NCBI RefSeq assembly: GCF_000384295.1
Contig: NZ_KB913037.1
Coordinates: 35,062 to 99,061, forward strand
DNA length: 64,000 bases
Source: Amycolatopsis balhimycina FH 1894
GTDB lineage: Bacteria > Actinomycetota > Actinomycetes > Mycobacteriales > Pseudonocardiaceae
Reading direction: 5' to 3'
Shown one piece after another: positions 6,290-53,162 of this stretch. Under the pieces are notes generated by a model. That model searched no databases. It saw nothing but the letters and a program-made list of their open reading frames with translations, and was not told the DNA's origin. A program made the position numbers and the translations under genes. The first letter of the stretch is position 1; every line of letters begins with the position of its first letter.

Positions 6290-6309
6290 GTCGGTCAGAT
6301 TACCAAATC

Positions 6310-6957: not shown

Positions 6958-7068
6958 GCGGCTCAGAGTAGGAAGCGCGGGCGCGGGGGCGAACCGGCCG
7001 AAAGTACAGGAGAGCGCCTGACAGCCGTGCTTTCGGCCGGTATTCGACGCCGCTCCGGCCCTCGTCGC

Positions 7069-12301: not shown

Positions 12302-12522
12302 GACGTCGGCGCTGTTTTTTCCATCGCCTCGATGAGGCTTTTCGGACGCATGTCGGTCCAGTTCTTCTCGATGTAGTCGAGGCATTCCTGCCTGCCGGCC
12401 TCCCCGAAAACGCTTTCCCATCCGTCGGGGACATCGGCGAAAACGGGCCAGAGCGAATGTTGCCCCTCGGCATTGACCAAAACGAGGTAACCGGCGTCTG
12501 GGTCCTCGAAAGGATTCGGCAT
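12298..12522 (-). CDS. MbtH-like NRPS accessory protein
   Basis: 74 aa. It shows the full MbtH signature: N-P-F-E-D near the start, N-x-E-x-Q-x-S-x-W-P ([10 protein letters not shown]), V-P-x-G-W and a C-terminal Y-I-E-x-N-W-T-D-M-R-P. MbtH proteins bind NRPS adenylation domains and help them fold and activate amino acids. A GAGAGGGG site precedes the ATG by about 7 nt. It is first in the minus-strand run MbtH, acyl-AMP ligase, dehydrogenase, dehydrogenase, all start/stop overlapped. The likely partners are the lipopeptide NRPSs, including the A-T protein at 1658-4243. Confidence 0.97.
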
Positions 12523-13941: not shown

Positions 13942-14656
13942 GGCGTGAGCGTAGGGGCGCGGCCACGTGGAAATGTCTAGAAGTGCGGCCGCCTGGCCCA
14001 GGCGGTGGGCGACGGTCGTCGCTGGGGAATCGCCCTGTTCGTGCCCGGTTCCGGGGCGGCCGAGGCCGATTCCGGCTTGGGTTTGGATGTGAACCCATAC
14101 GCCGGCCACAGTTCGCCGCCGGGCGGCCCGCCGGAAGTCACGGCGCGGCCCTCGATCTTGCCGCCCCGTTTCGGCAGTGCTACCCGATTCGCCCCCGTCT
14201 CCGCGGGGCCCTGCCCGGCAAGGGACCAGGCCGGAAGTCGAGGGATTTCCCGGTCTTTGGGTGGCGGTCCCGGGCGCTGCGCCGGTCGGGCACCGTGGCG
14301 TGAACTCGCTGCGGAAGCTCCGGAATCCAGCCCACTGCCAGTTCGATGCCCCTTGGCTGGGCCGCCACCGGGTCGGGACCAGGTGGGCGTACGCCGGCGA
14401 GGGCGCGGCGAGTGTGCCGATCGAGCACGTTGCGTGACTCGGTTCGCTGTCGTCCATGTTGATTTATGTTGGTTTTCTCGCCTCCGTCCGGCGGCTGACC
14501 GATCGGCCGTGCGACGGGTCCAGCACTGCGGGTCCGCGGGCAAGGGTAGGTGCTCGGCAACGGTTGCGACCTCCGTCACGATTGGGGGTTGCAAACGCAG
14601 ACGAACACAGGCAACATCACTCAAACCAAAGTGGTTCTCGGTGGAGGTGTACTGAA
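13942..14656. other. 715-bp gene-free region upstream of the PTS operon
   Basis: Frames here show no recognisable protein and no codon bias like the neighbours. It must hold the divergent promoters for the methyltransferase and the PTS operon. The last 80 bp (about 14580-14640) are less GC-rich and contain a run of CAAAC/ACGAA words, a possible DeoR-type operator region. Confidence 0.45.
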
Positions 14657-15592
14657 GTGTTCGTGACCCTGACGGCGAACCCGAGCGTCGACCGCACGGT
14701 CGAGGTGGCTCGGCTCACCCGGGGCGATCTGCACCGGGCCACCGGCGCCACCCTCCAGCCCGGCGGCAAAGGCATCAACGTCGCCCGGGCGCTGGTCCGC
14801 AACGGACACAAGGCTCGTGCGGTGGTTCCCGCCGGCGGTGCCGAAGGCGATCAGCTGATCAGTCTCCTTGAGGACTGCGACATCGACGTGGTCAGGGTCC
14901 GCACCGAAAAGCCGGTGCGCAGCAACATCAGCATCGTGGAACCGGACGCCACGGTGACGAAGCTGAACGAGATCGGCCCGCGCCTGTCGGCACAGGAGAT
15001 CGAGACGGTGTGCGACGTCCTGCTGGCCAACGTGGCCGACGCGCGCTGGGTGGTGGTGGCGGGAAGCCTGCCGCCCGGCGTCGGTGAGGACTTCTACGCG
15101 GCGCTGATCGAACGGCTCGCCCCCACCGGGGTCCGGGTCGTCGTCGACACCAGCGGCCCGGCGTTCCGGACGTCGGTGAAGGCCGGGCCGGCGCTGGTCA
15201 AGCCGAACCTCGACGAGCTCGAGGAAGCTGTCGACCGGCGGCTCGACACGGTGCGGGACATCGTGGACGCCGCGCAGGAGCTGCGTTTTCTCGGCGCGGG
15301 AAAGGTTTTGGCCAGTCTCGGCAGCAAAGGCGCCGTGCTGGTCGAAGACGCGGGGATCTGGTGCGCCAACGCATCGGCCGAACCGCGGAGTTCGGTCGGT
15401 GCCGGCGACGCGATGCTCGCCGGTTTCCTGGCGGCAGGGGGGAGTGGCCCGCAGGCGCTGGCCACAGCCGTCGCCTGGGGTGCGGCCGCGGTGTCGCTCC
15501 CGGGCAGCACGATGCCGGGGCCTCAAGACGTGGAGGCGCGTCGAGTGCGGGTGGAACCGCATCCCGGCTGGGACGAGAAGGTTCGCGAATAG
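14657..15592 (+). CDS. PfkB-family sugar-phosphate kinase (1-phosphofructokinase/tagatose-6-P kinase type)
   Basis: 311 aa from GTG 14657 with GGAGG 9 nt upstream. PfkB signatures: N-P-S-V-D-R-T at the N-terminus, G-G-K-G-I-N-V-A-R (about residues 37-45), G-S-L-P-P-G-V and the ATP-site/catalytic S-V-G-A-G-D-A-M-L-A-G. It phosphorylates a sugar phosphate, producing fructose-1,6-bisphosphate or tagatose-1,6-bisphosphate. It is first in a PTS operon that also encodes a polyol-type permease and a zinc polyol-phosphate dehydrogenase. The likely flow is imported hexitol-phosphate, oxidation to ketose-phosphate, then this kinase. FruK versus LacC/GatZ-like specificity cannot be told by eye. Confidence 0.85.
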   Translation: MFVTLTANPSVDRTVEVARLTRGDLHRATGATLQPGGKGINVARALVRNGHKARAVVPAGGAEGDQLISLLEDCDIDVVRVRTEKPVRSNISIVEPDATVTKLNEIGPRLSAQEIETVCDVLLANVADARWVVVAGSLPPGVGEDFYAALIERLAPTGVRVVVDTSGPAFRTSVKAGPALVKPNLDELEEAVDRRLDTVRDIVDAAQELRFLGAGKVLASLGSKGAVLVEDAGIWCANASAEPRSSVGAGDAMLAGFLAAGGSGPQALATAVAWGAAAVSLPGSTMPGPQDVEARRVRVEPHPGWDEKVRE

Positions 15593-15684
15593 CGTTGCGG
15601 CGCAGCGAGAGCCAGTTCGCTCCGGTATCCGCCATCGGTTGATGGCGAACCCTCAAATCACCTTTTCGGAAGAGGAAGCCAACG

Positions 15685-16794
15685 ATGACTACCACTACGG
15701 AGATCGACGAAGAAACTCCGTCGAGGGCGGAGCGCGCGCGGGTCTCGGTCCAGCGCTTCGGCGGTCAGCTCGCCAGCATGGTCATGCCGAACATCGGCGC
15801 GTTCATCGCCTGGGGCCTGATCACCGCCCTGTTCATCCCGAGCGGGTGGGCGCCCAACGCGCACATCGCCGAGCTCGTCGATCCGATGATCAACTTCCTG
15901 CTGCCGGTCCTGATCGGCTACACCGGCGGCCGCTTGGTCCACGGCCAGCGCGGCGCGGTCGTCGGTGCGGTCGCGACGGTCGGGATCGCGGTCGGCGCCT
16001 CAATCCCGATGTTCCTCGGCGCGATGATCGTCGGCCCGCTTGGTGGCTTCCTGATCAAGCTGTGGGACGACAAGGTCGGCAGCAAAACCGCCCCGGGCTT
16101 CAAGATGCTCGTCGACAACTTCAGCGCCGGCATCATCGGTGGCGCCATGGCGGTGCTCGGCCTGCTGGGCATCGGCCCGGTCGTGCAGGGCATCACCAAG
16201 GGCCTCGGCCACGGCGTACAGGTCCTGATCGACGCGCACCTGCTCCCGCTGGTCTCGATCATCGTCGAGCCCGCGAAGGTGCTGTTCCTCAACAACGCCA
16301 TCAACCACGGTGTACTCAGCCCCCTGGGCGTCGCCGACGCTCTGCGCGACGGCAAGGCCATCGAGTTCCTCATCGAGCCGAACCCCGGCCCCGGTTTCGG
16401 CATCCTGCTGGCGCTGACGTTCTTCGGCGCACGCAGCGCACGGGCCACCGCGCCCGGCGCGATCATCATCCAGTTCTTCGGTGGGATCCACGAGATCTAC
16501 TTCCCGTACGTCCTGGCCACTCCGCGCCTGATCCTGGCCGCGGTCGCCGGTGGCGCCGCCGGTGTCGCGACGTTCAGCATCTTCGGCGCGGGCCTGACGG
16601 CGACGCCGTCGCCGGGCAGCATCATCGCGGTCCTCGCGGTGACGCCGAAGGGCGGTTACGTCGGGGTCATCGCCGGCGTGCTCGTCGCCGCGATCGTGTC
16701 GTTCGTCGTCGCCGCGGCCCTGCTGAAGTTCGGCCGGGACGCCCGCAAGGAGGAACGTGAACTGGCCGTGGCGAATGGTGGAGCCGTCACTTGA
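15685..16794 (+). CDS. PTS permease IIC subunit, mannitol family
   Basis: 369 aa, strongly hydrophobic with about eight membrane segments. The conserved mannitol-family phrases V-M-P-N-I-G-A-F-I-A-W-G near the N-terminus, N-N-A-I-N-H-G, and G-G-I-H-E-I-Y-F-P-Y-V-L (the family's sugar-binding G-x-H-E loop) are all present. In Escherichia coli MtlA the C, B and A domains are fused; here the IIC stands alone and IIB and IIA follow as separate genes. It transports the sugar alcohol across the membrane while IIB phosphorylates it. The ATG 15685 is taken as start; the 92-bp gap after the kinase contains AGAGGAAG about 9 nt before it. Confidence 0.93.
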   Translation: MTTTTEIDEETPSRAERARVSVQRFGGQLASMVMPNIGAFIAWGLITALFIPSGWAPNAHIAELVDPMINFLLPVLIGYTGGRLVHGQRGAVVGAVATVGIAVGASIPMFLGAMIVGPLGGFLIKLWDDKVGSKTAPGFKMLVDNFSAGIIGGAMAVLGLLGIGPVVQGITKGLGHGVQVLIDAHLLPLVSIIVEPAKVLFLNNAINHGVLSPLGVADALRDGKAIEFLIEPNPGPGFGILLALTFFGARSARATAPGAIIIQFFGGIHEIYFPYVLATPRLILAAVAGGAAGVATFSIFGAGLTATPSPGSIIAVLAVTPKGGYVGVIAGVLVAAIVSFVVAAALLKFGRDARKEERELAVANGGAVT

Positions 16795-16841
16795 CGGTCA
16801 GGCTTGGCGATCATCGTCGATCGAAGGAAGGAAGTGCGGTT

Positions 16842-17150
16842 GTGAGCAGCATCGAAGGCAAAGAAGTCAAAAAGGTCATCATCGCCTGTGACGCCGGCAT
16901 GGGCAGTAGCGTGATGGTCGCGTCCCAGCTCGCCAAGCGGCTGAAGCCCTACTCGGTCAAGGTCGAGCACACGCCGGTCAACGACATCCCGGGTGACGCG
17001 CAGGTCGTGCTGTGCCAGAGCACCCTGGTCAAACGGGCCCGCAAGGCCAACGCCTCGGCCGTGATCCTCGGGTTCCAGAGCTTCCTGGGCGACCCGGTGT
17101 TCGACCAGGTCGAGACGGCGATCCGGGACGGCGGTTCCCTTGCCGACTGA
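16842..17150 (+). CDS. PTS IIB subunit (mannitol type)
   Basis: 102 aa from GTG 16842, preceded by GGAAGGAAG. The phosphocysteine loop reads I-I-A-C-D-A-G-M-G-S-S-V-M (Cys about residue 14), typical of IIB of the fructose-mannitol family. It receives phosphate from IIA and passes it to the polyol bound in IIC. The coding end overlaps the IIA start by 11 nt. Confidence 0.93.
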   Translation: MSSIEGKEVKKVIIACDAGMGSSVMVASQLAKRLKPYSVKVEHTPVNDIPGDAQVVLCQSTLVKRARKANASAVILGFQSFLGDPVFDQVETAIRDGGSLAD

Positions 17151-17595
17151 CGCTGCCATCCTCGGCGCCGAGTCCGTCCTCATCGGCTGCACCGCCACCG
17201 GCCAGGCCGACGCGATCACGCAGGTCGGCCGCAAGCTCCTGGAGCTGGGGGCGGTGGAGCCGGACTACCTCGACGCGATGCACGAGCGCGAACGCTCGGT
17301 GTCGACCTACCTCGGCGAAAACGTCGCCATCCCGCACGGCACCGACGAGTCCCGCCGGTTCGTGAAGCGGACCAAGCTGGCGATCCTCCAGTTCCCCGGC
17401 GGGGTCGACTGGGACGGCAACGACGTGCGGCTGTGCGTCGGCATCGCCGCCCAGGGGTCGGAGCAGGTCGGCATCTTGTCCTCGCTGGCCCGGATCCTGA
17501 TGGACGGCGAGCAGGCACGGCAGCTGCGGGAGGCGCCGGACGTCGAGACGATCTTGCGACTGTTGAATCAGATGGACGAGGAGTTCTCCGAATGA
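17140..17595 (+). CDS. PTS IIA subunit (mannitol/fructose type)
   Basis: 151 aa from TTG 17140, overlapping the IIB stop. The phospho-histidine motif N-V-A-I-P-H-G-T (His about residue 66) follows E-R-E-R-S-V-S-T-Y-L-G-E, as in MtlF. It accepts phosphate from HPr and donates it to the IIB cysteine. The stop overlaps the ATG of the dehydrogenase gene (ATGA). No better start exists upstream within the frame, and the N-terminus D-A-A-I-L-G-A-E-S-V matches the family beginning. Confidence 0.92.
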   Translation: MPTDAAILGAESVLIGCTATGQADAITQVGRKLLELGAVEPDYLDAMHERERSVSTYLGENVAIPHGTDESRRFVKRTKLAILQFPGGVDWDGNDVRLCVGIAAQGSEQVGILSSLARILMDGEQARQLREAPDVETILRLLNQMDEEFSE

Positions 17596-18650
17596 AGGTG
17601 GCACGTTTCTACGCGCCAGGCGATCTGCGGGTCGAAGAGGCCGACGAGCCGAACCCAGGCCCGGACGAGATCAAGATCCGGGTGCACAACACCTCCACGT
17701 GCGGCACGGATCTGAAGATCTTCAAGCACGGGCACCACCACATCGACCCGCCGCGGGTGATCGGCCACGAGATCGCCGGCGAGGTCGTCGAGACCGGCGC
17801 GAACGTCTCCGGCTGGAACTCCGGCGACCGCGTCCAGGTGATCGCGGCGATCCCGTGCGGCGAGTGCAAGCAGTGCCGCAAGGGCCTGCAGCAGGTCTGT
17901 CCCAACCAGCTGTCGATGGGCTACCACTTCGACGGCGGGTTCGCGGAGTACATGATCGTGCCGAAGCAGGTGCTCAAGGTCGACGGTGTCAACCGGATTC
18001 CCGACGGCGTCAGCTATGCCGAGGCCTCGGTCGCCGAACCGCTGGCGTGCGTCCTCAACGGGCAGAGCTTCGCGCAGGTCGGCCGAGGCGACGTCGTCGT
18101 GGTCGTCGGCGCCGGTCCGATCGGCTGCCTGCACGTGCGGCTCGCCCGCGCCAAGGGCGCGGCCGCGGTGTACCTGGTCGAACTGAACCGCGGCCGGCTG
18201 GACATGGCGGCGGAGCTGGTCAAGCCGGACGCCGCGATCTGCGGCGCCGAAGTCGACCCGGTGGAGAAGGTCCTCGAGCTCACCGGTGGCGACGGCGCCG
18301 ACGTGGTCATCACGGCGGCGGCCGCGGGCAAGGCCCAGGAGGACGCGCTCAAGATGACCGCGCGCCGCGGCCGGATCAGCTTCTTCGGCGGCCTGCCGAA
18401 GGACAACCCGATCATCGCGTGCGATTCCAACCTCGTGCATTACCGCGAGCTGACCATCTACGGCGCCAACGGGTCGAGCCCCGACCACAACCGCCAGGCG
18501 CTCGAGCTGATCTCCTCGGGCCGGGTCCCGGTCGACGACCTGATCACCCACCACCTGCCGCTGTCGGAGGTGCGCCGCGCGATCGACATCGTCAGCAGTG
18601 GCGAGGCCATCAAGGTGACCATCGAGCCGGGCACGTCCGACGCCGCGTGA
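17592..18650 (+). CDS. zinc-dependent medium-chain dehydrogenase (polyol-phosphate dehydrogenase type)
   Basis: 352 aa. MDR features: catalytic zinc ligands in T-C-G-T-D (Cys about 38) and G-H-E-I-A-G (His-Glu), four structural-zinc cysteines in C-G-E-C-K-Q-C...V-C, and the NAD(P) fold G-A-G-P-I-G. It oxidises a polyol or polyol phosphate to the ketose. Its translationally coupled position after IIA suggests it acts on the product of the PTS, like galactitol-1-phosphate or sorbitol-type dehydrogenases; canonical mannitol-1-phosphate dehydrogenase (MtlD) belongs to another family. The substrate could be mannitol, galactitol or another hexitol. Confidence 0.88.
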   Translation: MKVARFYAPGDLRVEEADEPNPGPDEIKIRVHNTSTCGTDLKIFKHGHHHIDPPRVIGHEIAGEVVETGANVSGWNSGDRVQVIAAIPCGECKQCRKGLQQVCPNQLSMGYHFDGGFAEYMIVPKQVLKVDGVNRIPDGVSYAEASVAEPLACVLNGQSFAQVGRGDVVVVVGAGPIGCLHVRLARAKGAAAVYLVELNRGRLDMAAELVKPDAAICGAEVDPVEKVLELTGGDGADVVITAAAAGKAQEDALKMTARRGRISFFGGLPKDNPIIACDSNLVHYRELTIYGANGSSPDHNRQALELISSGRVPVDDLITHHLPLSEVRRAIDIVSSGEAIKVTIEPGTSDAA

Positions 18651-18680
18651 GCGGGGCGGGCGAGAAGGAGGCGACCAGAG

Positions 18681-20348
18681 TTGGTTGAGGAACTGCGCGG
18701 CAACCCGGCGAGCCCCGGTGCGGCCGCCGGCCCGGTGGTGCGGCTGACCCCGCCCCCGGTGCTGCCGGAGCACTGGGACGCCCCGGCAGAGCCGGAAGCC
18801 GAACTGGCGGCCGCCACCGAAGCGCTCGACGCGGCGGTGGCGGACCTGGAGAAGCGCGCGGCCTCGGTCAGCGGCGAGGCGAAGTCCATCATGGACACCC
18901 AGATCATGATGGCCAAGGACGCCTCACTGACGGCGGGCATCCGCGCCTCGGTGGACAACGGGCGGCCGGCGGCGTGGGCGATTTCCGACGCCTTCGGCAA
19001 GCACGTCGCCGCGCTGGAGAGCATCGGCGGCTACGTCGGGGAGCGGGCGGCCGACCTGATCGACATCCGGGACCGGGCGATCGCCGCCGCGCTGGGGCTG
19101 GAGCCACCCGGCATTCCCGACGTCGACGGGGTGTTCGTCCTGGTGGGCCAGGACATCGCGCCGGCCGACACGGTCCTGCTCGACCCGGCGAAGGTGCTCG
19201 GCATCGTCACCGAGAAGGGGGGCCCGACGAGTCACACGGCGATCGTCGCCCGGGCGCTCGGGATCCCCGCGGTGGTCGGCTGCGCCGGCGCCGCGGGCCT
19301 CGAGGCCGGGCAGCGGGTCGCGGTCGACGGCGGGCGCGGCACGGTGGTCGTGGACCCGACCGACGACCACGTTCGCCAGGTCCGGGCCGAGTCCGACGCG
19401 CTGAAGGAAAAGCTCGCCCGGCACAGCGGTCCCGGCGCCACCGCCGACGGCCACCCGGTCAAGCTCCTGCTCAACGTCGGCAGCGTCGGCGGCGCCTCGG
19501 CCGAAGCCGCCGCCGACGCCGAAGGGGTCGGGCTCTTCCGCACCGAGTTCCTGTTCCTGGACCGCACGGAGGCCCCGTCGGTCGAGGAACAGCGGGCGGC
19601 CTACGGCGAGGTGCTGCGCGGGTTCGCCGGCCGTCCGGTGGTCATCCGGACGCTGGACGCCGGAGCCGACAAGTACATCCCGTTCGCCAACACCGAAGAC
19701 GAGCCCAACCCGGCCCTCGGCGTGCGCGGCTACCGCGTCGGCGTCCGCCACCCGGAGCTGCTCACTGCGCAGCTGCGGGCGATCAGCCTGGCGGCCGCCG
19801 ACCACGACGCGGACGTGCGGGTGATGGCTCCGATGATCGCCACGCCGGCGGAGGCCGCGGCGTTCCGCGACCTGACCCGCGAGCACGGCATCGGCCGGGC
19901 CGGCGTCATGATCGAGGTGCCGGCCGCGGCGATCCGGGCGGCGGACATCCTGGCGGAGGTCGACTTCGTCAGCATCGGCACCAACGACCTGTCGCAGTAC
20001 ACCTACGCCGCGGACCGGATGCTGGGTGAACTGGGGGAGCTGCTGGACCCCTGGCAGCCGGCGTTGCTGGCGCTCGTGGCAAACGTCGCGGCGGCGGCCA
20101 AGGAGGCGGGCAAGGCCGCCGGCATCTGCGGCGAGGCGGCCAGCGACCCGGGGCTGGCCCCGGTGTTCGCCGGCCTCGGCATCACCAGCCTGTCGATGTC
20201 GGTGTCCGCGGTCCCCGCGGTCCGCGCCGCCTTGACCGACTACACGCTCGAGCAGTGCGAAGTCCTGGCCCGCGAGGTGCTGTCCGCGCCCGACGCGCCG
20301 AAGGCCCGCCGGGTCGCGGCGGAGTTCGCCGCCAAGTCCGGCGGTTGA
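18681..20348 (+). CDS. ptsI: PTS enzyme I (phosphoenolpyruvate-protein phosphotransferase)
   Basis: 555 aa from TTG 18681 with GAAGGAGG upstream. The N-terminal half carries the phospho-histidine motif G-G-P-T-S-H-T-A-I-V-A-R (His about 187). The C-terminal TIM barrel has F-R-T-E-F-L-F, the P-A-L-G-V-R-G-Y-R stretch, M-I-E-V-P-A and the signature S-I-G-T-N-D-L-S-Q-Y. It transfers phosphate from PEP to HPr, the first step for all PTS sugars. It usually is a general component encoded apart from sugar-specific genes, so its presence here makes the operon self-sufficient. Confidence 0.96.
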   Translation: MVEELRGNPASPGAAAGPVVRLTPPPVLPEHWDAPAEPEAELAAATEALDAAVADLEKRAASVSGEAKSIMDTQIMMAKDASLTAGIRASVDNGRPAAWAISDAFGKHVAALESIGGYVGERAADLIDIRDRAIAAALGLEPPGIPDVDGVFVLVGQDIAPADTVLLDPAKVLGIVTEKGGPTSHTAIVARALGIPAVVGCAGAAGLEAGQRVAVDGGRGTVVVDPTDDHVRQVRAESDALKEKLARHSGPGATADGHPVKLLLNVGSVGGASAEAAADAEGVGLFRTEFLFLDRTEAPSVEEQRAAYGEVLRGFAGRPVVIRTLDAGADKYIPFANTEDEPNPALGVRGYRVGVRHPELLTAQLRAISLAAADHDADVRVMAPMIATPAEAAAFRDLTREHGIGRAGVMIEVPAAAIRAADILAEVDFVSIGTNDLSQYTYAADRMLGELGELLDPWQPALLALVANVAAAAKEAGKAAGICGEAASDPGLAPVFAGLGITSLSMSVSAVPAVRAALTDYTLEQCEVLAREVLSAPDAPKARRVAAEFAAKSGG

Positions 20349-20397
20349 GCGGCCGCCGCCCGGGCAACGCGCTTTCAAACCAGATGGGAATACCGGA

Positions 20398-20682
20398 ATG
20401 TCCAGTAAAACAGTGGTAATCGGGTCGCCTGTCGGGCTGCATGCGCGGCCGGCCAAGCTGCTCGTCGAAGCGGCGGCCAGGCAGCCGGTGCCGGTGAAGA
20501 TCGGCCGCAGCGAGGACAAGCTGGTGGACGCCGCCAGCATCCTCGGGGTGATGGCCCTCGGCGTCCGCGGCGGCGAAGAAGTGCTGATCACGGCCGAGGG
20601 CGAAGGCGCGGAGAGCGCGGTGGCGGAGATCGCCGAGCTGCTGGCGCGCGATCTCGACTCGGCCGAGCAGTCGGCCGGCTGA
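20398..20682 (+). CDS. ptsH: PTS phosphocarrier HPr
   Basis: 94 aa. The active-site His is in V-G-L-H-A-R-P-A (about residue 15) and the regulatory Ser region reads D-A-A-S-I-L-G-V-M. Size and order match HPr exactly. It shuttles phosphate from enzyme I to IIA. It ends the PTS operon, 49 bp after enzyme I. Confidence 0.96.
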   Translation: MSSKTVVIGSPVGLHARPAKLLVEAAARQPVPVKIGRSEDKLVDAASILGVMALGVRGGEEVLITAEGEGAESAVAEIAELLARDLDSAEQSAG

Positions 20683-20783
20683 CGCCGGTGGCCCGGCAGG
20701 TGACCCCCTGGCCGGCCGGGCCGCCGCGCGCCTGCGGTGTCCACTGAGGACCCCGGGTGCGCGCCCTGCCGGCCCTCGGATTT

Positions 20784-20823
20784 CCGGTGAGCCGTTCTGG
20801 TCACTGTCCGGACGGCTCACCGG
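20784..20823 (+). terminator. terminator after the PTS operon
   Basis: Perfect 12-bp arms (ccggtgagccgt / acggctcaccgg) with a 16-nt loop, about 100 bp past the HPr stop and before the convergent DeoR gene. The rest of 20683-21020 holds further GC palindromes but no gene. Confidence 0.7.
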
Positions 20824-21020
20824 ACTCCCACGCGGTACGTCGCCGCGGTTTCGCCCACCCCCGGGCGGGACCGCGGCTTCGTCGTGGGTGCTTTCGGGCA
20901 CCGGCGCCGGACGAACGTGCCCATGCGTAAGGGCGCCGGCTTGTGCGCGGGCGGGCATGACGCCGCCCGGGCGCGACCCGGCGCCCGCTGCGAGGAGACA
21001 GGCTGTTCCCGGCGGCGCGC

Positions 21021-21788
21021 TCAGGCGATGACCATGCGCGGTCCGGCTCCGGCGAGGTCTCGGGCTACGTGTTTGTCGATGCCGTCGTCGGTGATGAAGG
21101 TGTCGATGTCGGATAGTTCGGCGAAGCGGGCGAAGTGGTCGTTGCCGACTTTGGTGTGGTCGGCGAGGAGGACGGTGCGGCGGGCGCAGTTGATGGAGGC
21201 TTGTTTGACCATGGCTTCGGCGGTGTCGGGGGTGGTGAGGCCGCGTTCGAGGGATAGTCCGTTGGTGGCGATGAAGGCGACTTCGACGAAGGTGTCTCGG
21301 AGGGCTTGGAGGGCCCAGGAGTCGACGAGGGCGAGGGTGCGGCCGCGGAGTCGTCCGCCGACGAGCATGAGGGTGATGTTGGGGCGGGTGGAGAGGGTCG
21401 TGGCGATGGTGATGGAGTTGGTGACGACGGTGAGTTCGCGGTCGGCGGGGAGGTGTTCGGCGAGGCGGGCGGTGGTGCTGCCGGCGTCGAGGAGGATGGC
21501 GCCTTCTTCGGGGATTTCGGTGATGGCGGCTTTGGCGATGCGGTCTTTTTCGGTGGCCATGAGGGTGTTGCGGGTGGCGAGGGCGGGTTCGAACCCGAGG
21601 CGCTCGACGGGGATGGCGCCGCCGTGGACGCGGCGGAGCAGGCCGTGTCGTTCGAGTACGGTGAGGTCGCGGCGGACGGTTTCGGTGGTGACCGAGAACT
21701 CGGCGGCCAGTTCGGCCACGTCGACGCGACCGTTGGCACGTGCCCGGTCCAGGAACACACGCTGCCGTTCTTCTGCGTACATCGTCAT
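21021..21788 (-). CDS. DeoR-family transcriptional repressor of sugar metabolism
   Basis: About 255 aa. An N-terminal DeoR helix-turn-helix (V-D-V-A-E-L-A-A-E-F-S-V-T-T-E-T-V-R-R-D-L, residues 22-42) is followed by the V-H-G-G-A hinge and the sugar-phosphate-binding domain with D-A-G-S-T-T, T-N-S, G-G-x-L-R and A-D-H-T-K-V-G. ATG 21788 and ATG 21782 are both possible; AAAGG suits the second better. It faces the PTS operon convergently and probably represses it until a phosphorylated intermediate binds. Its codons use more pyrimidine-ending forms (CCT, TCC, ACC blocks) than the neighbours, giving a long proline-rich antisense frame that is not a gene. Confidence 0.92.
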   Translation of the reverse strand: MTMYAEERQRVFLDRARANGRVDVAELAAEFSVTTETVRRDLTVLERHGLLRRVHGGAIPVERLGFEPALATRNTLMATEKDRIAKAAITEIPEEGAILLDAGSTTARLAEHLPADRELTVVTNSITIATTLSTRPNITLMLVGGRLRGRTLALVDSWALQALRDTFVEVAFIATNGLSLERGLTTPDTAEAMVKQASINCARRTVLLADHTKVGNDHFARFAELSDIDTFITDDGIDKHVARDLAGAGPRMVIA

Positions 21789-22422: not shown

Positions 22423-22602
22423 CGGGTGCCCCGGGTGGTGCCGCCGCGCGGCGGACATCGATTGACTCGAAACAGGACCTTCTGCGGCGCTGCCCGCAGG
22501 AAGACAATCCGGCTGAGATCGAGCCGGGCGCGGAGGCCGGGAAACCGCTGCCGCGAGTCAGGTTGAGGGCGGTCCCACTCTGGTACTGCCGGAAAGTCGG
22601 TG

Positions 22603-23292
22603 ATGGTGATGATGGAAAGTGCGACTGCGGTACCAGGTTCCGGTCTCGCCGCGATGCCGAACCCGTCCGATGGTGCCGACACCAAGACCTGCATGGCCAG
22701 CCTGCTGCCGGACCTGACCGTGGTGGCGGCCAACGACGAGTTCTTCGAGCAGTTCGGCCGGAGCTCCGCCGACGTGTGCGGGCGCGGGCTCTACGAGCTG
22801 CTGCACCCGGGTACCCAGGCCGTGCTGGACCGGCACTTCGCCGGGCTGGTGAAACGCGGCCACAATCGCTTCGCCGAGCGCGTGCTCGGCATGTACGGGC
22901 CCGACAACCTGTTCTCCGGTGAGCTGACCGCGGTGGCGGTGCGCGGCGAGACCGACGAGCTGTCGTCGATCGTCGTGCTGGTCTCCCCGGACGGCGTCAT
23001 CGCCGAGGAAGCCGAGGTCCCCGAGCAGGGCCGCCGCCGGTCACGCGCCCGGAAGGCGCTGCTGACCGAGCTCGACGGGCGGATCCTGGAAGGGGTGGCG
23101 GCCGGTGCGTCCACCGTGCAGCTGGCCAGCCGCCTGTACCTGAGCCGCCAGGGCGTGGAGTACCACGTCGGCTCGATGCTGCGGAAGCTCCGGGTGTCGA
23201 ACCGGCCGGCCCTGGTTTCCCGGGCCTACTCGATGGGTCTGCTCGCCGCCGACTGCTGGCCGCCCCGGGTCGTGCCCGGCGTGGTGACCTGA
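22603..23292 (+). CDS. PAS-LuxR transcriptional activator, PimM/AmphRIV/NysRIV type
   Basis: About 229 aa. An N-terminal PAS domain begins at M-A-S-L-L-P-D-L-T-V-V-A-A-N-D-E-F-F and extends to about residue 135. A C-terminal LuxR helix-turn-helix follows, with L-D-G-R-I-L-E-G-V-A-A-G-A-S-T, Q-L-A-S-R-L-Y-L-S-R-Q-G-V-E-Y-H-V and L-R-K-L-R-V-S-N-R. This two-domain layout and the M-A-S-L-L-P-D-L phrase are hallmarks of activators of polyene macrolide clusters. Several stacked starts (GTG 22600, ATG 22603, GTG 22606, ATG 22609) follow GGAAAG; ATG 22603 is used. Candidate operators of the family's 16-bp type lie before three transcription units downstream. A strong hairpin follows 8 nt after the stop. 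Confidence 0.92.
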   Translation: MVMMESATAVPGSGLAAMPNPSDGADTKTCMASLLPDLTVVAANDEFFEQFGRSSADVCGRGLYELLHPGTQAVLDRHFAGLVKRGHNRFAERVLGMYGPDNLFSGELTAVAVRGETDELSSIVVLVSPDGVIAEEAEVPEQGRRRSRARKALLTELDGRILEGVAAGASTVQLASRLYLSRQGVEYHVGSMLRKLRVSNRPALVSRAYSMGLLAADCWPPRVVPGVVT

Positions 23293-23698: not shown

Positions 23699-24478
23699 TC
23701 AGGCCCGGACGGCGTGGGTGGCGGCGACCCGGGCCAGCTCGGCCCGCAAGCGCGCCAGCACGTCCGCCGAGTGCTCCACCAGGAAGAAGTGGCCGCCGCG
23801 GTAGACGTGCATGGCGAAGGCGCCGGTGGTGTGCTGCCCCCACATCCGGGCCTCTTCGGCCGTCACCTTGGGATCGGTGTCGCCGATGAAGACGGTGACC
23901 GGGCAGGGCACCAGCCGGTCCGGCGGGCAGCTGTAGGTTTCGATGGCGGTGAAGTCGCCCCGGATGGCGGGCAGCGCCATCCGGCGGATCTCCTCGTCGT
24001 CCAGCAACGCCGTGTCGGTGCCGCCGAGCTCCTGGACCTCGGCGATGATGCCGTCGTCGCCGAGCAGGTGCACGAACTCCTCGCGGACGGTCGCCGGGCC
24101 GCGGCGGCCGGACGCGACCAGCGACGCCGGTGCGCCGCCACCCGCTGCCGCCAGGCGGTGCGCCACCTCGAAGGCGAGGATCGCGCCCATGCTGTGTCCG
24201 AAGTAGACGGTCGGCATCGGCGGCAGGCCGCCCAGCACGGCGGTCAGCCGCGCGGCGTACTCGTCGACGGACCGGATGACCGGTTCCCGGCGCCGGTCCT
24301 GCCGTCCCGGGTACTGCAGCGAGATCACGTCCGCAGCGGGCGCCAGGGCGCGCGCCACCGGCTGGAAGAAGCTCGCCGCGCCACCCGCGTGCGGGAAGCA
24401 GACCAGCCGGGCCGTCGCGTCCGGCGTGCCGGCGAAGCGGCGGATCCAGAGTGCGGCTTCGGTTTCTGAGATGTCCAC
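23699..24478 (-). CDS. type II thioesterase (polyene cluster)
   Basis: 259 aa from GTG 24478. Motifs: C-F-P-H-A-G-G-A-A-S-F-F (about residues 33-44), the nucleophile elbow G-H-S-M-G (Ser about 101) and the catalytic His in G-G-H-F-F-L-V. It removes aberrant acyl groups from carrier domains. The gene is divergent from the C*-A-T NRPS-like gene across 175 bp. A putative -10 (TACCCT) lies only 6 nt before the GTG, so its mRNA may be leaderless, and a PimM-like operator sits just upstream. Amphotericin and nystatin clusters also contain such an enzyme (AmphE/NysE). Confidence 0.93.
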   Translation of the reverse strand: MDISETEAALWIRRFAGTPDATARLVCFPHAGGAASFFQPVARALAPAADVISLQYPGRQDRRREPVIRSVDEYAARLTAVLGGLPPMPTVYFGHSMGAILAFEVAHRLAAAGGGAPASLVASGRRGPATVREEFVHLLGDDGIIAEVQELGGTDTALLDDEEIRRMALPAIRGDFTAIETYSCPPDRLVPCPVTVFIGDTDPKVTAEEARMWGQHTTGAFAMHVYRGGHFFLVEHSADVLARLRAELARVAATHAVRA

Positions 24479-24502: not shown

Positions 24503-24518
24503 GGCGAGAAATCCCTAG
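24503..24518 (-). promoter_or_regulatory. candidate PAS-LuxR (PimM-type) operator 1
   Basis: On the minus strand: CTAGGGATTTCTCGCC. Against the PimM consensus as I recall it (CTVGGGAWWTCCCBAG) it matches 13 of 16 positions, with the left half perfect. It lies between the divergent thioesterase and C*-A-T genes. Confidence 0.55.
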
Positions 24519-24653: not shown

Positions 24654-27629
24654 ATGACCGATCGTCTACCGGAAGACGCCGCCTTCACGCGGCTGGTGTG
24701 CCCGATCGAGCAGTGGTTCCTCGGCTTCCCGGCGAAGATGTCACCGGTCACGAACTTCTGTGTCGAAGGCGCCGGCCGGCTGGACACCGAGAGCCTGCGC
24801 CGCGCGGTGGCCGTCGCTTCCGAGGCGTGCCCGGGCGCCCGGCTCGTCCGCCGTGGTCGCCGCTGGGTCGACGGGGGTGCCGACCCGGCCGTCAAGGTGG
24901 TCTCCGGCGTCGCGGACCCCTGCGCCGCGCCCGAACTGCGCTCGCCGCTGCCCAACCGCTCCGGCGCGAACTGCGAGGTGCTGCTGCTCGACGGTCCCGA
25001 GCCGACCGTGGTGCTGCGGGCGAGCCACGTGGTGATGGACGGGCGCGGGCTGATCCTCTGGGCGCGAGACGTGTTCCGCGCCCTGCGCGGGGAGGAACCG
25101 GCCGGCGCGCGGTCGACCGGGACCGTGCTGGACCTCGACAACCCGTTCTACAGCCAGGCCGGCCAAGCCGAGGCGGCCACCAAGGTGCCGTCCTTGCTCG
25201 GGATCCCGCCGCGCGCGGACATCCGCCGGCAGCTGTGGCGGCGGCGGACGGTCGACGGGAACTTCCCGGCGTTGAGCGCCAAGCTGGCCGCCGCCGTGAC
25301 CGCGTTCTCCGGCCGGCCCACCGCGCCGATCCGGTTTCCGCTGGACCTGCGCCCGTTCCACCCCGAGATCCGGTCCACCGGCAACCTGTCGCTCGTCCTG
25401 TCCCTGGACGTGGCGGCCGTCGACTCGTGGGAAGAGATCTACCAGCGGCTGCTGGCCGCGCTGAGCGACCAGGACGGCCGGGTCTCGGCCCCCGACCCCA
25501 GCATCCTCAAGGCGCCCGTCCCGCTGCTGCGGTACTTCATCCGGCGCGCCGAGCGCTCGGCCCGCCGGGAGGACCGGTTCAGCGCCACGGCCAACGTGAA
25601 CAACCTCGGCCGGGTTCCGGCGGAGTGGTTCCACACCGGCACGTTCGAGGCCGCCGGCGCGTACATGGTGTCGCCGATGGAGCCGGCCACGCCGGTGTCC
25701 GTCGTGGCGACCGAGGGCGACGGCCGCACCGACCTCACGGTGGCCTGGTGGGACGGCCCCGGCATGTCCGAGCGGGTCGACGCCCTGCTCGACACCGTCG
25801 GCGAGGCGCTCGCTCCGGCCGTCCACCGCGAGCAGGGCCGGCTGACGTCCGCGGCGCTGCCGGATCCGGGCCCCGGAATCGTGGACCGGTTCCTGGAACA
25901 GGTCCGCCGCCGTCCGGACGCGATCGCGGTGAGCGCGTCGGACGGCGAGGTCACCTACGCCGAGCTGGACCGGCGGATGCGCGGTGTCGCGAAGTCCCTG
26001 CGGGAGCTGGGAGTCGGCCGCGAGGACGTGGTCGGGCTGCTCGCGGACAAGACCGTGGACGCCGTCGCCGGAGCGTGGGGCACCCTGATGGCCGGCGCCG
26101 CGTACCTGCCGATGGACCCACAGCACCCGGACGCCCGCATCCGGACCCTCCTGGCCGACGCGAAGGCCGCGGCCTGCCTGGTCACCCGGCCGCACGACCG
26201 GCGCGACCACCGCCCGGACGGCTGCGCCGGGCTCGTGCTCGACGACCTGCCGCGCGACGCCGACCTGGAGCCGGCCGCCCCGGCGCCCGGCGACCTCGCC
26301 TACGTCGTCTACACCTCGGGTTCGACCGGCCGGCCCAAGGGCGTCGAGGTCGAACACCGGAGCATCGCGGCGTACGCGACCTGCGCGACGAAGGAACACG
26401 GCATCGGCCCGGCCACCCGGCTGCCGCTGCTCTGCTCGCTGTCTTTCGACCTCGCGCAGCTCTCGCTGATCCTGCCCCTCACCGTCGGGGGCACGCTGCA
26501 GCTGCTGCGCGACGAGATCAGCCACCTCGGCCTGCAGGAGGTCCTCGACGCCGGGGCCACGACGCTCTCCCTCACGCCCTCGCACCTCGACCTCATCACC
26601 CGCCTGGAGCTGCGGCCGGGCGCGGTGCGGACCCTGCTGGTCATCGGCGAGCAGTTCACCCGCGGGGTGGCCCTGCGCGCCCGGCAGGTGTTCGGGCCGG
26701 ACTGCCTGATCACCAACATGTACGGACCGGCCGAGGCCACCATCGGCGTCGGGTACCACGACTTCGACGCCGACCGCGACGAGGGCGCGGCCGTGCCGAT
26801 CGGCGTGCCGTACGACGGCGTCACCTACCACGTGCTCGACGCCGGCCGGGGTTACGTCGCCCCCGGCGAGCCCGGCGAGCTGTACATCGGCGGCAGCCAG
26901 CTCGCCCGGGGCTACCGGGGCCGGCCCGACCTGACGCGCGAGCGGTTCGTCCGGCTGGCCGACGGCGGCCGGGTCTACCGCACGGGCGACATCGTGCGCC
27001 GGCTGCCCGGCGGCGGCCTGGAGTTCTGCGGGCGGATCGACGACCAGATCAAGGTGCTCGGCCACCGCATCGAGCCCGCCGAGATCGCGCAGACCATGGA
27101 GACGCACCCGGCCGTGTCCGGCGCCGTGGTCGTCGCGCGCTCCCGGCCGGGCCACCGCGACAAGACGTTGTGCGGGTACGTCACCGCCGCCGACGGGCCG
27201 ATCGACATCGGCGAGCTGACCGGCTACCTGGCCGAACAGCTGCCCGGCTACCTGGTGCCGGCCACGATCGTGCCGGTCGCGGAGTTCCCGCGCTCGATGA
27301 ACGGCAAGATCGCGACCGCGTCGCTGCCGGACCCGTTCGGGGACGCGAAGCCGGTGGCCGGCGGGGCGCTCGAAGGCATGGAGGACACGGTGGCGCGGAT
27401 CTGGTCGCAGGTGCTCGGCGTCGAGGCCGACCGGTTGCACGGCGCCAGTGATTTCCACCGGCTCGGCGGCGACTCGCTGTCGCTGATCACCATGGTCGCG
27501 CAGGTCGCCCGGCACGCCACGGGTCCGGACGGTGAGCGCGCGTTCGTCAGCCGGCTGCCCGAGATCATCCGCCGGACGACCGTCGAGCACGTGGCCGAAC
27601 TGGCTGTGCAGGCTCGGGCGGGGCAGTGA
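24654..27629 (+). CDS. NRPS-like protein: C-type acyltransferase - adenylation - PCP
   Basis: 991 aa from ATG 24654 (GGAG 8 nt upstream). Residues 1-390 form a condensation-superfamily domain with the catalytic motif S-H-V-V-M-D-G (HxxxDG, about 126) and a later S-T-G-N-L-S-L. The adenylation domain covers about 410-900: A3 Y-T-S-G-S-T-G-R-P-K-G (about 553), A4 S-F-D-L-A-Q-L-S-L, A5 N-M-Y-G-P-A-E-A-T, Y-R-T-G-D and M-N-G-K. A PCP with L-G-G-D-S-L-S (Ser about 940) ends it; no thioesterase or reductase. The pocket aligned by eye (D-L-L-S-L-I-M-I-G) matches no code I know. It probably activates an amino or hydroxy acid and transfers it to an acceptor, perhaps the polyketide, its sugar or a starter carrier. 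A stand-alone paralogue of its first domain follows 1 nt after its stop codon. Confidence 0.85.
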   Translation: MTDRLPEDAAFTRLVCPIEQWFLGFPAKMSPVTNFCVEGAGRLDTESLRRAVAVASEACPGARLVRRGRRWVDGGADPAVKVVSGVADPCAAPELRSPLPNRSGANCEVLLLDGPEPTVVLRASHVVMDGRGLILWARDVFRALRGEEPAGARSTGTVLDLDNPFYSQAGQAEAATKVPSLLGIPPRADIRRQLWRRRTVDGNFPALSAKLAAAVTAFSGRPTAPIRFPLDLRPFHPEIRSTGNLSLVLSLDVAAVDSWEEIYQRLLAALSDQDGRVSAPDPSILKAPVPLLRYFIRRAERSARREDRFSATANVNNLGRVPAEWFHTGTFEAAGAYMVSPMEPATPVSVVATEGDGRTDLTVAWWDGPGMSERVDALLDTVGEALAPAVHREQGRLTSAALPDPGPGIVDRFLEQVRRRPDAIAVSASDGEVTYAELDRRMRGVAKSLRELGVGREDVVGLLADKTVDAVAGAWGTLMAGAAYLPMDPQHPDARIRTLLADAKAAACLVTRPHDRRDHRPDGCAGLVLDDLPRDADLEPAAPAPGDLAYVVYTSGSTGRPKGVEVEHRSIAAYATCATKEHGIGPATRLPLLCSLSFDLAQLSLILPLTVGGTLQLLRDEISHLGLQEVLDAGATTLSLTPSHLDLITRLELRPGAVRTLLVIGEQFTRGVALRARQVFGPDCLITNMYGPAEATIGVGYHDFDADRDEGAAVPIGVPYDGVTYHVLDAGRGYVAPGEPGELYIGGSQLARGYRGRPDLTRERFVRLADGGRVYRTGDIVRRLPGGGLEFCGRIDDQIKVLGHRIEPAEIAQTMETHPAVSGAVVVARSRPGHRDKTLCGYVTAADGPIDIGELTGYLAEQLPGYLVPATIVPVAEFPRSMNGKIATASLPDPFGDAKPVAGGALEGMEDTVARIWSQVLGVEADRLHGASDFHRLGGDSLSLITMVAQVARHATGPDGERAFVSRLPEIIRRTTVEHVAELAVQARAGQ

Positions 27630-27630
27630 A

Positions 27631-28815
27631 ATGGGCATCGGAACAGGTACTGACATGAGAACTGACAACGGTTTCAGCCGCCCGATCGACCCGATCGAGT
27701 GGTGGTTCCTGGGCTTTCCGCGCAAGGTGTCGGCGGCGTTGAACCTGTGCGTCGAGGGCACCGGCCACATCGGCCCGGGAGAGCTGCGCCGCGCGGTGGC
27801 GGTCGCGTCCCGGGCCTGCCCGGGCGCCCGGCTCGTCCGCCGCGGCCGCACGTGGGTGGACAGCGGCGTCGCGCCGGCGGTGACGGTGACGCACGGGCTC
27901 CCGGCCGACGCGCCCGAGCTGCGCACTTCGCTGCCCGGGCGAGCGGGCCGCACGTGCGAGGTGGTGCTGTTCGCGGGGCCGCAGCCGACGGTGGTGTTCC
28001 GGGCCGGGCACGCCGTGATGGACGCACGCGGGTTGCTGTGGTGGGCCCGTGACGTGTTCCGGGTTCTGCGCGGTGAAGAACCGGCCGGCGCCCCGTCGCC
28101 CGCCACCTTCGAAGACCTCGACGATCCGCTCCACCGGCAGGCCGGCGAAGCCGGATCCGATACCGGGATGCCCGCCCTGCTCGGGATTCCGCCGGGAGCG
28201 GACCTGCGCCGCCAACTCTGGCGGCGGTGCACGATCGAGGGCACGGTCCCGGCGCTCGAGGCGCGGCTGGCCGCGGCGCTGGTGGAGCTGTCCGGCCACC
28301 CCGTGGCCCCGGTCGGCTTCGTCGTCGACGTGCGCCCCGGCCACCCGGAGATCCGGTCGACGGGCAACCTCTCGCTGGCTGTCTCCCTGGACCTGCGGGC
28401 CGGTGACTCCTGGCCGGAGGTGGACCGGCAGCTGGCCGACGCGCTCGCGGACCGGACCTGCCGGGTCGACGCGCCGGGCGCGGAGATCCTCAAAGCACCG
28501 CTGCCGCTGCTCCGGCACATCGTCCGGCGGGTCGACCGCAGCGCGCGGCGGGACGATCGGCACAGCCTGCTGGCCGAGGTGTACCACCTGGGCCCGGTGC
28601 GGCCCGGGTGGTTCCACACGGACGGTTTCACCGCGGCCGCCGGGTATGTGCTGTGCCCGATGGAGCCCGGCGCCGCCTTGTCCGTCGTCGCCACCGAGGG
28701 CGACGGCCGGACCGACCTGACCCTGTCCTGGTGGGACGGTCCCGGGATGGCCGAGCGGGTGGACGCCCTGCTCGACCGGCTCGGCGCGGCCCTGGTGCCG
28801 CAGGAAACCGGCTGA
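27631..28815 (+). CDS. stand-alone condensation-superfamily acyltransferase, paralogue of the preceding C domain
   Basis: 394 aa from ATG 27631 (ATG 27655 also possible). The whole protein aligns with residues 1-390 of the preceding NRPS-like protein: P-I-E-W-W-F-L-G-F-P-R-K-V-S against P-I-E-Q-W-F-L-G-F-P-A-K-M-S, A-C-P-G-A-R-L-V-R-R-G-R, R-S-T-G-N-L-S-L, and T-E-G-D-G-R-T-D-L-T near the end. The active motif reads G-H-A-V-M-D-A: His and Asp are kept but the usual Gly after Asp is Ala. It therefore arose by tandem duplication and is probably still an acyltransferase or a second condensation step using the same carrier. It starts 1 nt after the preceding stop, so the two are one operon. Confidence 0.8.
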   Translation: MGIGTGTDMRTDNGFSRPIDPIEWWFLGFPRKVSAALNLCVEGTGHIGPGELRRAVAVASRACPGARLVRRGRTWVDSGVAPAVTVTHGLPADAPELRTSLPGRAGRTCEVVLFAGPQPTVVFRAGHAVMDARGLLWWARDVFRVLRGEEPAGAPSPATFEDLDDPLHRQAGEAGSDTGMPALLGIPPGADLRRQLWRRCTIEGTVPALEARLAAALVELSGHPVAPVGFVVDVRPGHPEIRSTGNLSLAVSLDLRAGDSWPEVDRQLADALADRTCRVDAPGAEILKAPLPLLRHIVRRVDRSARRDDRHSLLAEVYHLGPVRPGWFHTDGFTAAAGYVLCPMEPGAALSVVATEGDGRTDLTLSWWDGPGMAERVDALLDRLGAALVPQETG

Positions 28816-28869: not shown

Positions 28870-28885
28870 CTCGGAAATTCCCCAG
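28870..28885 (+). promoter_or_regulatory. candidate PAS-LuxR (PimM-type) operator 2
   Basis: CTCGGAAATTCCCCAG matches 15 of 16 positions of the recalled PimM consensus CTVGGGAWWTCCCBAG. It is in the 180-bp gap before the GDP-mannose dehydratase gene, 110 bp from its ATG. Confidence 0.65.
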
Positions 28886-28995
28886 TACCGCTTCGAGTTC
28901 GATTGACACCTGGTTCGACCGGCTGCGACGGTCGGACCGGAGCATGAGATCCGAAGCCCGCTGTCCGGCTCGTCGCGAAGAAAGGGGTGCGGCGC

Positions 28996-30030
28996 ATGAC
29001 CAAGCGCGCACTGATCACCGGGATAACCGGGCAGGATGGCTCCTACTTGGCCGAACACCTGCTCGAGCAGGGATACCAGGTGTGGGGGCTCATCCGGGGC
29101 CAGGCGAACCCCCGGAAGTCGAGGGTGAGCAGGCTGCTGGGTGACGTGACCTTTGTGGACGGTGACCTGATGGACCAGGCCAGCCTGGTCTCCGCCGTGG
29201 ACGCGGCGCAGCCGCACGAGGTCTACAACCTCGGTGCGATCTCGTTCGTGCCGATGTCCTGGCAGCAGTCGGAACTCGTCACCGAGGTCAACGGCATGGG
29301 CGTGCTGCGCATGCTGGAGGCCATCCGGGTGGTCAGCGGGCTGAGCGGCTCCCGCACGCCGACCGTGGACAACCAGATCCGGTTCTACCAGGCGTCCTCC
29401 TCCGAGATGTTCGGCAAGGTGGCCGAGACCCCGCAGCGCGAGACGACCACGTTCCACCCGCGCAGCCCGTACGGCGTGGCCAAGGCCTACGGGCACTTCA
29501 TCACCCGGAACTACCGGGAGTCCTTCGGGATGTACGGGGTTTCCGGGATGCTGTTCAACCACGAGTCACCCCGGCGCGGCGCGGAGTTCGTGACCCGCAA
29601 GATCACCCTGGCGGTGGCCCAGATCAAGCTCGGCCTCCAGGACAAGCTGCGCCTCGGCAACCTGGACGCGGTACGCGACTGGGGGTACGCCGGTGACTAC
29701 GTGCGCGCCATGCACCTCATGCTGCAGCAGCCCACTGCGGGCGACTACGTGGTCGGCACCGGCAAGATGCACTCGGTCCGGGACGCGGTGCGGATCGCTT
29801 TCGAGTGCGTCGGCCTGGATTGGCGCGACCACGTCGTGATCGACCCGGCGCTGGTGCGGCCGGCGGAGGTGGAGACGCTGTGCGCGGACAACACCCGCGC
29901 CCGCACCGAACTCGGCTGGGAGCCCGAAGTGGACTTCACCCGGCTGATGCAGATGATGGTGGAGTCGGACCTGCGGCAGGCCGAGCGGGAGCGCGAGTTC
30001 GGCGATCTCCTGGTGTCGGCGGGCTGGTAG
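28996..30030 (+). CDS. GDP-mannose 4,6-dehydratase (NysDIII/AmphDIII type)
   Basis: 344 aa. Extended SDR: NAD(P)-binding G-I-T-G-Q-D-G (residues 8-14), substrate region Y-N-L-G-A-I-S-F-V, catalytic A-S-S-S-E-M-F-G and Y-G-V-A-K (YxxxK), then N-H-E-S-P-R-R-G, all typical of GDP-mannose 4,6-dehydratases. It makes GDP-4-keto-6-deoxymannose, the first committed intermediate of mycosamine (and of 6-deoxymannose-type sugars). The length and its position directly before a giant PKS gene match nysDIII/amphDIII in the polyene clusters as I recall them. No aminotransferase (DII) or glycosyltransferase (DI) is in this window, so the final sugar is not shown. AAAGGGG lies upstream of the ATG, and a strong terminator follows. 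Confidence 0.93.
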   Translation: MTKRALITGITGQDGSYLAEHLLEQGYQVWGLIRGQANPRKSRVSRLLGDVTFVDGDLMDQASLVSAVDAAQPHEVYNLGAISFVPMSWQQSELVTEVNGMGVLRMLEAIRVVSGLSGSRTPTVDNQIRFYQASSSEMFGKVAETPQRETTTFHPRSPYGVAKAYGHFITRNYRESFGMYGVSGMLFNHESPRRGAEFVTRKITLAVAQIKLGLQDKLRLGNLDAVRDWGYAGDYVRAMHLMLQQPTAGDYVVGTGKMHSVRDAVRIAFECVGLDWRDHVVIDPALVRPAEVETLCADNTRARTELGWEPEVDFTRLMQMMVESDLRQAEREREFGDLLVSAGW

Positions 30031-30085: not shown

Positions 30086-30112
30086 GCTTTTCCGGCATTG
30101 TCCTGGCACTAC

Positions 30113-30128
30113 TAGGGATTTACCGATC
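30113..30128 (+). promoter_or_regulatory. candidate PAS-LuxR (PimM-type) operator 3
   Basis: CTAGGGATTTACCGAT matches 14 of 16 positions of the recalled consensus. It sits between the terminator and the ATG of the giant PKS gene; GAGACT about 14 nt downstream may serve as the -10. Confidence 0.62.

Positions 30129-30185: not shown

Positions 30186-53162
<22,977 letters not shown>

Follow-up and report, generated by a model that had tools for sequence, protein, structure and literature searches.

The genome of Amycolatopsis balhimycina FH 1894 carries, beside genes of the nystatin type for a mycosamine-bearing polyene, two adjacent genes for enzymes of the condensation superfamily. We regard as evenly poised the proposal that they form an aminoacyl-transfer pair resembling LstE of lipstatin biosynthesis, which would decorate the polyene with an amino-acid ester through one enzyme and serve a second site through the other. 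The genes lie in the 64,000-nucleotide stretch analyzed here (the window; 35–99 kb of the 10.86-Mb single-contig genome), whose numbering is used for the positions below. The first (24,654–27,629, plus strand, 991 amino acids) encodes a putative LstE-like aminoacyl-transfer module in which a condensation-superfamily domain, here termed C*, is fused to an adenylation (A) domain and a peptidyl carrier protein (PCP) domain; the second (27,631–28,815, plus strand) encodes a free-standing C* of 394 amino acids, counted from the ATG at 27,631. In the proposed mechanism, the A domain would adenylate an α-amino acid and load it onto its own PCP, and the fused C* would move the aminoacyl group from this carrier to a polyene hydroxyl, giving an amino-acid ester, as is proposed for LstE. 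The free C* comes without a carrier and would therefore draw on this loaded PCP too, acting on a second hydroxyl or with a different regiochemistry.

Inspection of the reading frames confirmed both genes where they had been placed. The first starts at the ATG at 24,654 and stops at the TGA at 27,627–27,629. The earliest ATG in frame for the second lies a single base away, and this gene starts there or at 27,655; the GC contents at the three codon positions are 0.75/0.52/0.95 for the first frame and 0.75/0.58/0.90 for the second. Pfam recognizes AMP-binding (E = 1.3e-71), AMP-binding_C, and PP-binding in the C*-A-PCP protein, which has full-length relatives, after an N-terminal part of ≈390 residues that bears no Pfam name. 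This region holds the fused C* (24,684–25,835), delimited by a family profile match and by alignment with relatives and carrying HVVMDGRG at ≈25,026–25,049. The A domain (25,854–27,323) and the PCP (27,339–27,608, with the motif LGGDSL) follow on the same strand, and the free C* carries HAVMDARG at ≈28,009–28,032.

The original prediction had described two sister enzymes of the condensation superfamily, one fused and one free. Pfam is silent on C*, but the AlphaFold model of the free enzyme (pLDDT 92.5) has the condensation fold: its Foldseek and VIA-align matches are condensation domains, and the two-lobed chloramphenicol acetyltransferase (CAT) fold of the superfamily spans the whole length of C*. 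Because of these structure matches, we assign C* to the condensation superfamily on the strength of the model. The motif HxxxDxxG (H127, D131, and G134) is invariant in all 55 aligned C* sequences, and the canonical HHxxxDG is not matched, the corresponding residues reading SHVVMDG in the fused and GHAVMDA in the free C*. At E 0.001, neither Pfam nor NCBIfam recognized the free C*, and Pfam, NCBIfam, and PDB sequence searches with the window C* returned nothing firm, the Condensation family PF00668 being unmatched. Weak matches to PF00668 occur in 3 of the 55 aligned sequences (best E 0.0041), and the precomputed Pfam Condensation domain appears in none of 65 listed related proteins. Among known systems, free-standing condensation enzymes such as SgcC5 (PDB 4znm) come close, and the window C* may differ from them in this lack of a Condensation match. 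PapA5 (PDB 1q9j), also a close known system, differs in that it takes its fatty acyl donor from a polyketide synthase (PKS) and works without an A-PCP partner.

The two C* sequences are 63% identical, and the free one is, by its place in the tree, a duplicate of the fused one that arose in the lineage of the window. In a tree of 55 sequences, the free C* and proteins P0001–P0004 group together (support 100/99). The sister group of this clade consists of the fused C* from the window and from a sister genome, G066 (99/96), and all of them fall inside a 14-member polyene subclade (100/100); it is from this nesting beside the window's fused C* that we read the duplication. Fold, motif, identity, and tree thus agree with the description of two sister enzymes. 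When relatives were sought elsewhere, as had been proposed, C*-A-PCP proved common, and the free C* was found only in the window genome, in G066, and among unplaced proteins. Between the window genome and G066, the ratio of nonsynonymous to synonymous substitution rates (dN/dS) is 0.26 for the free C*, 0.24 for the fused C*, 0.19 for the A-PCP part, and 0.24 for the first PKS stretch, with 0.04 for the neighboring dehydratase and 0.07 for the regulator. On these values, both C* copies appear to be kept under selection, changing about as fast as the PKS. It is very unlikely that the free C* is a dehydratase, an epimerase-like enzyme, or a helper paralogue instead of an acyltransferase of this pathway; the shared fold by itself shows no function, but the protein is nested among the C* domains of aminoacyl modules and keeps both the histidine and the aspartate.

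For the addition of two amino acids, the family offers a parallel. Tandem C*-A-PCP genes lie beside PKS genes in Dactylosporangium (loci L036 and L038) and in Streptomyces sp. 150FB (L041), L051 also has two copies, and the pocket codes differ between the tandem copies within L038 and within L041. Only the transferase is doubled in the window, hence the idea of a shared donor.

The claim of a candidate new acyl-transfer system is not supported in that form. By sequence, the window C*-A-PCP belongs to a widespread actinobacterial family and is not one of a kind; the family has lipstatin-type branches and others beside PKS genes, and it also occurs in other polyene-bearing Amycolatopsis. Scoring in the protein searches was limited to the candidates with most words in common, 7992 and 7994 of them, and the related-locus search, of which the best 80 of 129 stretches were kept, gave 75 loci; with nine others and the window, these make a set of 85. 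Across this set, a single cluster takes in 59 C*-A-PCP-type genes from 55 loci, with which the window protein shares its C*, A, PCP order and its length of ≈1000 amino acids. The caller of open reading frames missed some genes and some frames open at the 3′ end, and C*-A-PCP is hence uncalled at some loci. Recurrent neighbors at the 85 loci are a ketosynthase III (KSIII) family (23), a family of ≈290-residue proteins (16), an AMP-ligase family (14), and a 3β-HSD/OleD-like family (9). One representative of each was scanned, and that of the ≈290-residue family had no Pfam match.

LstE is proposed to add leucine to the 5-hydroxyl of lipstatin as an ester, which LstF then formylates. In Streptomyces toxytricini, Bai and colleagues reportedly described in 2014 a lipstatin operon, lstA–F, in which LstE is a nonribosomal peptide synthetase (NRPS). 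The gene order KSIII, KSIII-like, OleC-like, OleD-like, C*-A-PCP appears to match that of lstABCDEF; the review PMC12141560 bears out one part of this order, the adjacency of the KAS-III-like genes LstA and LstB. Among the 16 loci listed, L049 shows KSIII, the ≈290-residue gene, ligase, OleD-like gene, and C*-A-PCP in succession, and in L083 and L103 the first four of these genes precede a C* match. The ligases of L082 and L049 exceed the cut-off of the NCBIfam fatty acid CoA ligase, with olefin β-lactone synthetase next and under its cut-off, and the nearest NCBIfam family of their reductases is OleD, also under cut-off. In L077, a locus without a called KSIII gene, a formyltransferase-like gene (under cut-off) comes after C*-A-PCP, and a gene at 12,958–13,698 of L070, which has the KSIII set, resembles it by eye.

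The window C* is homologous to members in these β-lactone operons of the lipstatin type, as matches to L049, L082, and L085, the family profile, and the tree indicate. Like LstE, family members stand beside two KSIII-like genes, an OleC-like ligase, and an OleD-like reductase. The window unit differs in its nystatin-type setting, where its neighbors are a type II thioesterase, a GDP-mannose dehydratase, and a PKS and not a lipstatin-type operon, and in its extra free C*. Since the family has lipstatin-type branches, amino-acid ester formation has a precedent within it, and by analogy this would be the chemistry of the window unit. At its core, the unit thus appears to be an LstE-like module that polyene biosynthesis has recruited; what is rare and unusual is its duplicated transferase. 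By description, there is also a likeness to Orf3 and Orf2 of bafilomycin, a fumarate adenylyltransferase and a fumaryl transferase; according to PMC7827423, a macrolide hydroxyl is acylated there by a dedicated activating enzyme and transferase, and the donor is fumaryl-AMP and no amino acid.

C* also occurs in other settings. The C*-only loci L061, L092, L093, L102, and L104 share a family of GNAT-domain proteins, and some of them have, by eye, genes for a small carrier protein and for FabZ-like and KS-like proteins. Free C* proteins occur in Nocardia (e.g., P0009), several of them named "peptide synthetase". At L096, also from Nocardia, a free C* (4981–6168) follows KSIII, OleC-like, and OleD-like genes, and A-PCP was not found on this short contig.

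The A-PCP of the original prediction looks intact. Motifs A3, A5, A7, A8, and A10 are undamaged, the serine of the PCP is in place, and TIGR01733 scores 371.7 bits on the A domain, above its cut-off of 317.4. Alignment reproduced the pocket code D-L-L-S-L-I-M-I-G, which is identical in G066; the code reads DVISIILIG in the Amycolatopsis genomes G035, G009, and G070 and DVIAMILIG in G034, G058, and three Streptomyces. Asp235 is kept in 57 of 58 aligned rows, and the substrate is therefore expected from the sequence to be an α-amino acid rather than an unknown acid of any kind, as the original prediction had left it. A DLTK-type code, taken to be Asp/Asn-like, is found in 13 of the 58 rows. Two residues of Asp/Asn codes, Lys278 and Glu/His322, are missing from the polyene subclade. 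The lipstatin-type-operon members L049 and L082 carry such codes, DLTKIGEIG and DLTKVGEIG, and a short gene downstream in L082 is GNAT-like by eye, with no NCBIfam match; by analogy, the L082 combination fits an esterastin-like logic. Naming the amino acid of the window from its pocket was tried and given up without an assignment, as Gly, Cys, Asp, Asn, and Ala codes tie for the best match.

The link of C*-A-PCP to polyene genes in Amycolatopsis is well supported by gene content and genome comparison. To judge by its genes, the cluster in the window is a nystatin-type mycosaminyl polyene cluster. It includes a PAS-LuxR regulator, PimM-like by domain make-up (22,600–23,292, plus strand; Pfam GerE and PAS), a type II thioesterase (23,699–24,478, minus strand; PF00975, 1.8e-47) that is divergent from the C*-A-PCP gene, as originally noted, a GDP-mannose 4,6-dehydratase of the mycosamine pathway (28,987–30,030, plus strand; PF16363, 5e-122; TIGR01472, 392.6 bits, below the cut-off of 415), in what is presumably the NysDIII position, and a modular PKS (30,186–53,162, plus strand) with five ketosynthase (KS) and five acyltransferase (AT) motifs. 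Two P450s, a DegT aminotransferase, and a UDP-type glycosyltransferase lie directly beyond the window, and the region read contains 18 KS motifs. All these components are shared with the nystatin and amphotericin clusters, from which the pair of C*-A-PCP and free C* is not known.

Relatives of C* occur in 12 of 80 Amycolatopsis genomes, and the closest subclade (full-length identity at least 58%) in seven, that of the window included. All seven have the mycosamine dehydratase, compared with 27 of the 80 genus-wide (p = 2.8e-4, with relatedness ignored), and in six it lies on the same contig as C*-A-PCP in three arrangements (1.4, ≈20, and ≈115 kb), the distances being 1.4 kb in the window genome and G066, 18 kb in G058, 21 kb in G034, 112 kb in G035, and 117 kb in G009. 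In G070, the dehydratase is on another contig, but C*-A-PCP has part of a dehydratase gene and an aminotransferase next to it. Just one of the other five Amycolatopsis with a C* relative has the dehydratase, ≈295 kb away. Family-wide, 13 of 390 genomes match at E 1e-70, and C* identity of at least 47% is confined to the seven. With operator-like sites in some of the genomes as well, these counts uphold the claimed membership of the polyene cluster.

An asparagine-synthetase-like amidotransferase lies beside or within tens of kilobases of C*-A-PCP in G009 (8,647,946–8,649,844, L015; this copy matches TIGR01536), G034, and G058, and a similar gene is near a free C* in L061; the enzyme may make polyene carboxamides. 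It was rejected as a core partner, being present near those three and not found in the stretches searched in the window genome (the window, L106–L110), G066 (40 kb), G035 (119 kb), and G070 (63 kb).

The presence of the mycosamine dehydratase in all seven closest Amycolatopsis makes the amino sugar the shared part that was tested, and condensation domains usually make amides. Both points would suit transfer to the mycosamine amino group, giving an N-aminoacyl polyene, with the free C* serving a hydroxyl or a second amine. We consider this unlikely; 20 of the 27 dehydratase genomes lack a polyene-subclade gene, and in the family precedents, the lipstatin-type operons, the acceptor is a hydroxyl, given the proposed role of LstE.

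The unit might also provide the PKS with an amino starter, or protect one, in the manner of VinM, which puts alanine on a β-amino starter. This is improbable because the first module of the window PKS reads, by its motifs, as AT and acyl carrier protein (ACP) before the first KS, and the same reading disfavors the earlier suggestion of an amino-acid starter. In favor of such a role, section 4.1 of the review by Caffrey (PMC8944477) predicts a guanidinobutyryl starter for the polyene genes of A. saalfeldensis, a relative that also carries C*-A-PCP. The review names A. jejuensis and A. benzoatilytica as further species with clusters of this type. The AT-ACP of the window is, however, unlike the loading ACP described for A. 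saalfeldensis. In the main text of this review, "adenylation" and "peptide synthetase" are absent and "NRPS" occurs once, for another system, and among the entries from the open-licence literature on NRPS genes in polyene clusters, none was recognized as describing this C*-A-PCP unit.

Candidate operators had been taken to suggest production together with the PKS. The window holds eight matches to the PAS-LuxR consensus with up to three mismatches, against 2.76 expected, and 1 of 100 shuffles reaches eight. The site before C*-A-PCP (GGCGAGAAATCCCTAG, 24,503–24,518, plus strand, three mismatches; same sequence in G066) is weak alone: when the 300 bases upstream were shuffled 200 times, 5% of the shuffles did as well. 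Better sites precede the GDP-mannose dehydratase (28,870–28,885, plus strand, one mismatch) and the PKS (30,112–30,127, plus strand, two mismatches). A site with up to three mismatches lies within 300 bases upstream of 5 of 10 polyene-subclade genes (those of the window, G066, and three Streptomyces), compared with 2 of 54 other family genes, a contrast for which p values overstate the case because the members are related. The 54 controls include C*-only genes and exclude polyene-subclade loci and stretches under 200 bases, and their start codons were guessed from the C* start.

Several observations weigh against the proposal of a polyene-decorating pair. In Streptomyces noursei A-2-1, which has a complete chromosome, C*-A-PCP lies near 1.3 Mb, >1 Mb from both mycosamine dehydratases, and no polyene genes were seen in the 21 kb inspected there. 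In the draft genomes of Streptomyces sp. CB02959 and S. diastatochromogenes, C*-A-PCP and the dehydratase sit on different contigs, but those with C*-A-PCP, of only 39 and 12 kb, are too short to judge linkage. The free C* is present in only two of the seven Amycolatopsis subclade members, and the dN/dS of both C* exceeds that of the dehydratase and of the regulator several-fold. The operator match is weak in G035 and G009 (four mismatches) and no better than chance in G034, G058, and G070. The pocket code shares at most four of nine positions with any of the known codes compared, and the likeness to LstE is one of gene context and described role. To our knowledge, no member of the polyene subclade has been studied, and we know of no amino-acylated polyene. 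The Streptomyces orthologues set apart from the mycosamine genes, together with the position of the pair at the cluster edge, would suit a different pathway bordering the polyene cluster. We nonetheless hold this highly improbable because C*-A-PCP and the mycosamine gene recur together, sharing a contig in six of seven Amycolatopsis and in three arrangements; the operator-like sites and the presence of the mycosamine gene in all three Streptomyces with a polyene-subclade C*-A-PCP also argue against it.

Elsewhere in the window, genes for a PfkB kinase, for EIIC, EIIB, EIIA, and EI of a sugar phosphotransferase system, and for a DeoR regulator (14,456–21,788) separate two clusters. The other, at the window start (1–12,421, L106), is a possible second NRPS cluster with two A-domain stretches in L106 and a stretch like a type II thioesterase (102–782); an acyl-CoA dehydrogenase and an AMP ligase are encoded at 8766–12,421 on the minus strand. 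Between two PKS frames, 53,162–57,032 has no clean frame, with an AT-like motif at 55,034. The region 51,000–59,000 aligns partially to G066 (90%, 99 gap openings in 6.8 kb), whose PKS changes frame too, and the break probably reflects indel errors, or possibly decay.

A more specific form of the proposal, which we put forward tentatively and with considerable doubt, is that one A-PCP donor feeds both the fused and the free acyltransferase, placing the same amino acid at two polyene positions, and that the Streptomyces orthologues set apart from the mycosamine genes act in trans. Whatever its substrate, the C*-A-PCP family offers a sequence handle, missed by Pfam, for spotting such modules in many PKS clusters. 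Aminoacyl groups add positive charge and are a lever on polyene solubility and toxicity in semi-synthesis, and a natural enzyme that aminoacylates polyenes would be a tool for such work; the fused and free pair would allow one to ask how a condensation-type domain selects its acceptor. If the proposal is true, polyenes that carry amino acids would exist in nature as a class, and the three Streptomyces orthologues, each with an operator-like site a short way upstream, would serve their own mycosaminyl polyenes; even in S. noursei, the species of nystatin, a tailoring gene would have been overlooked.
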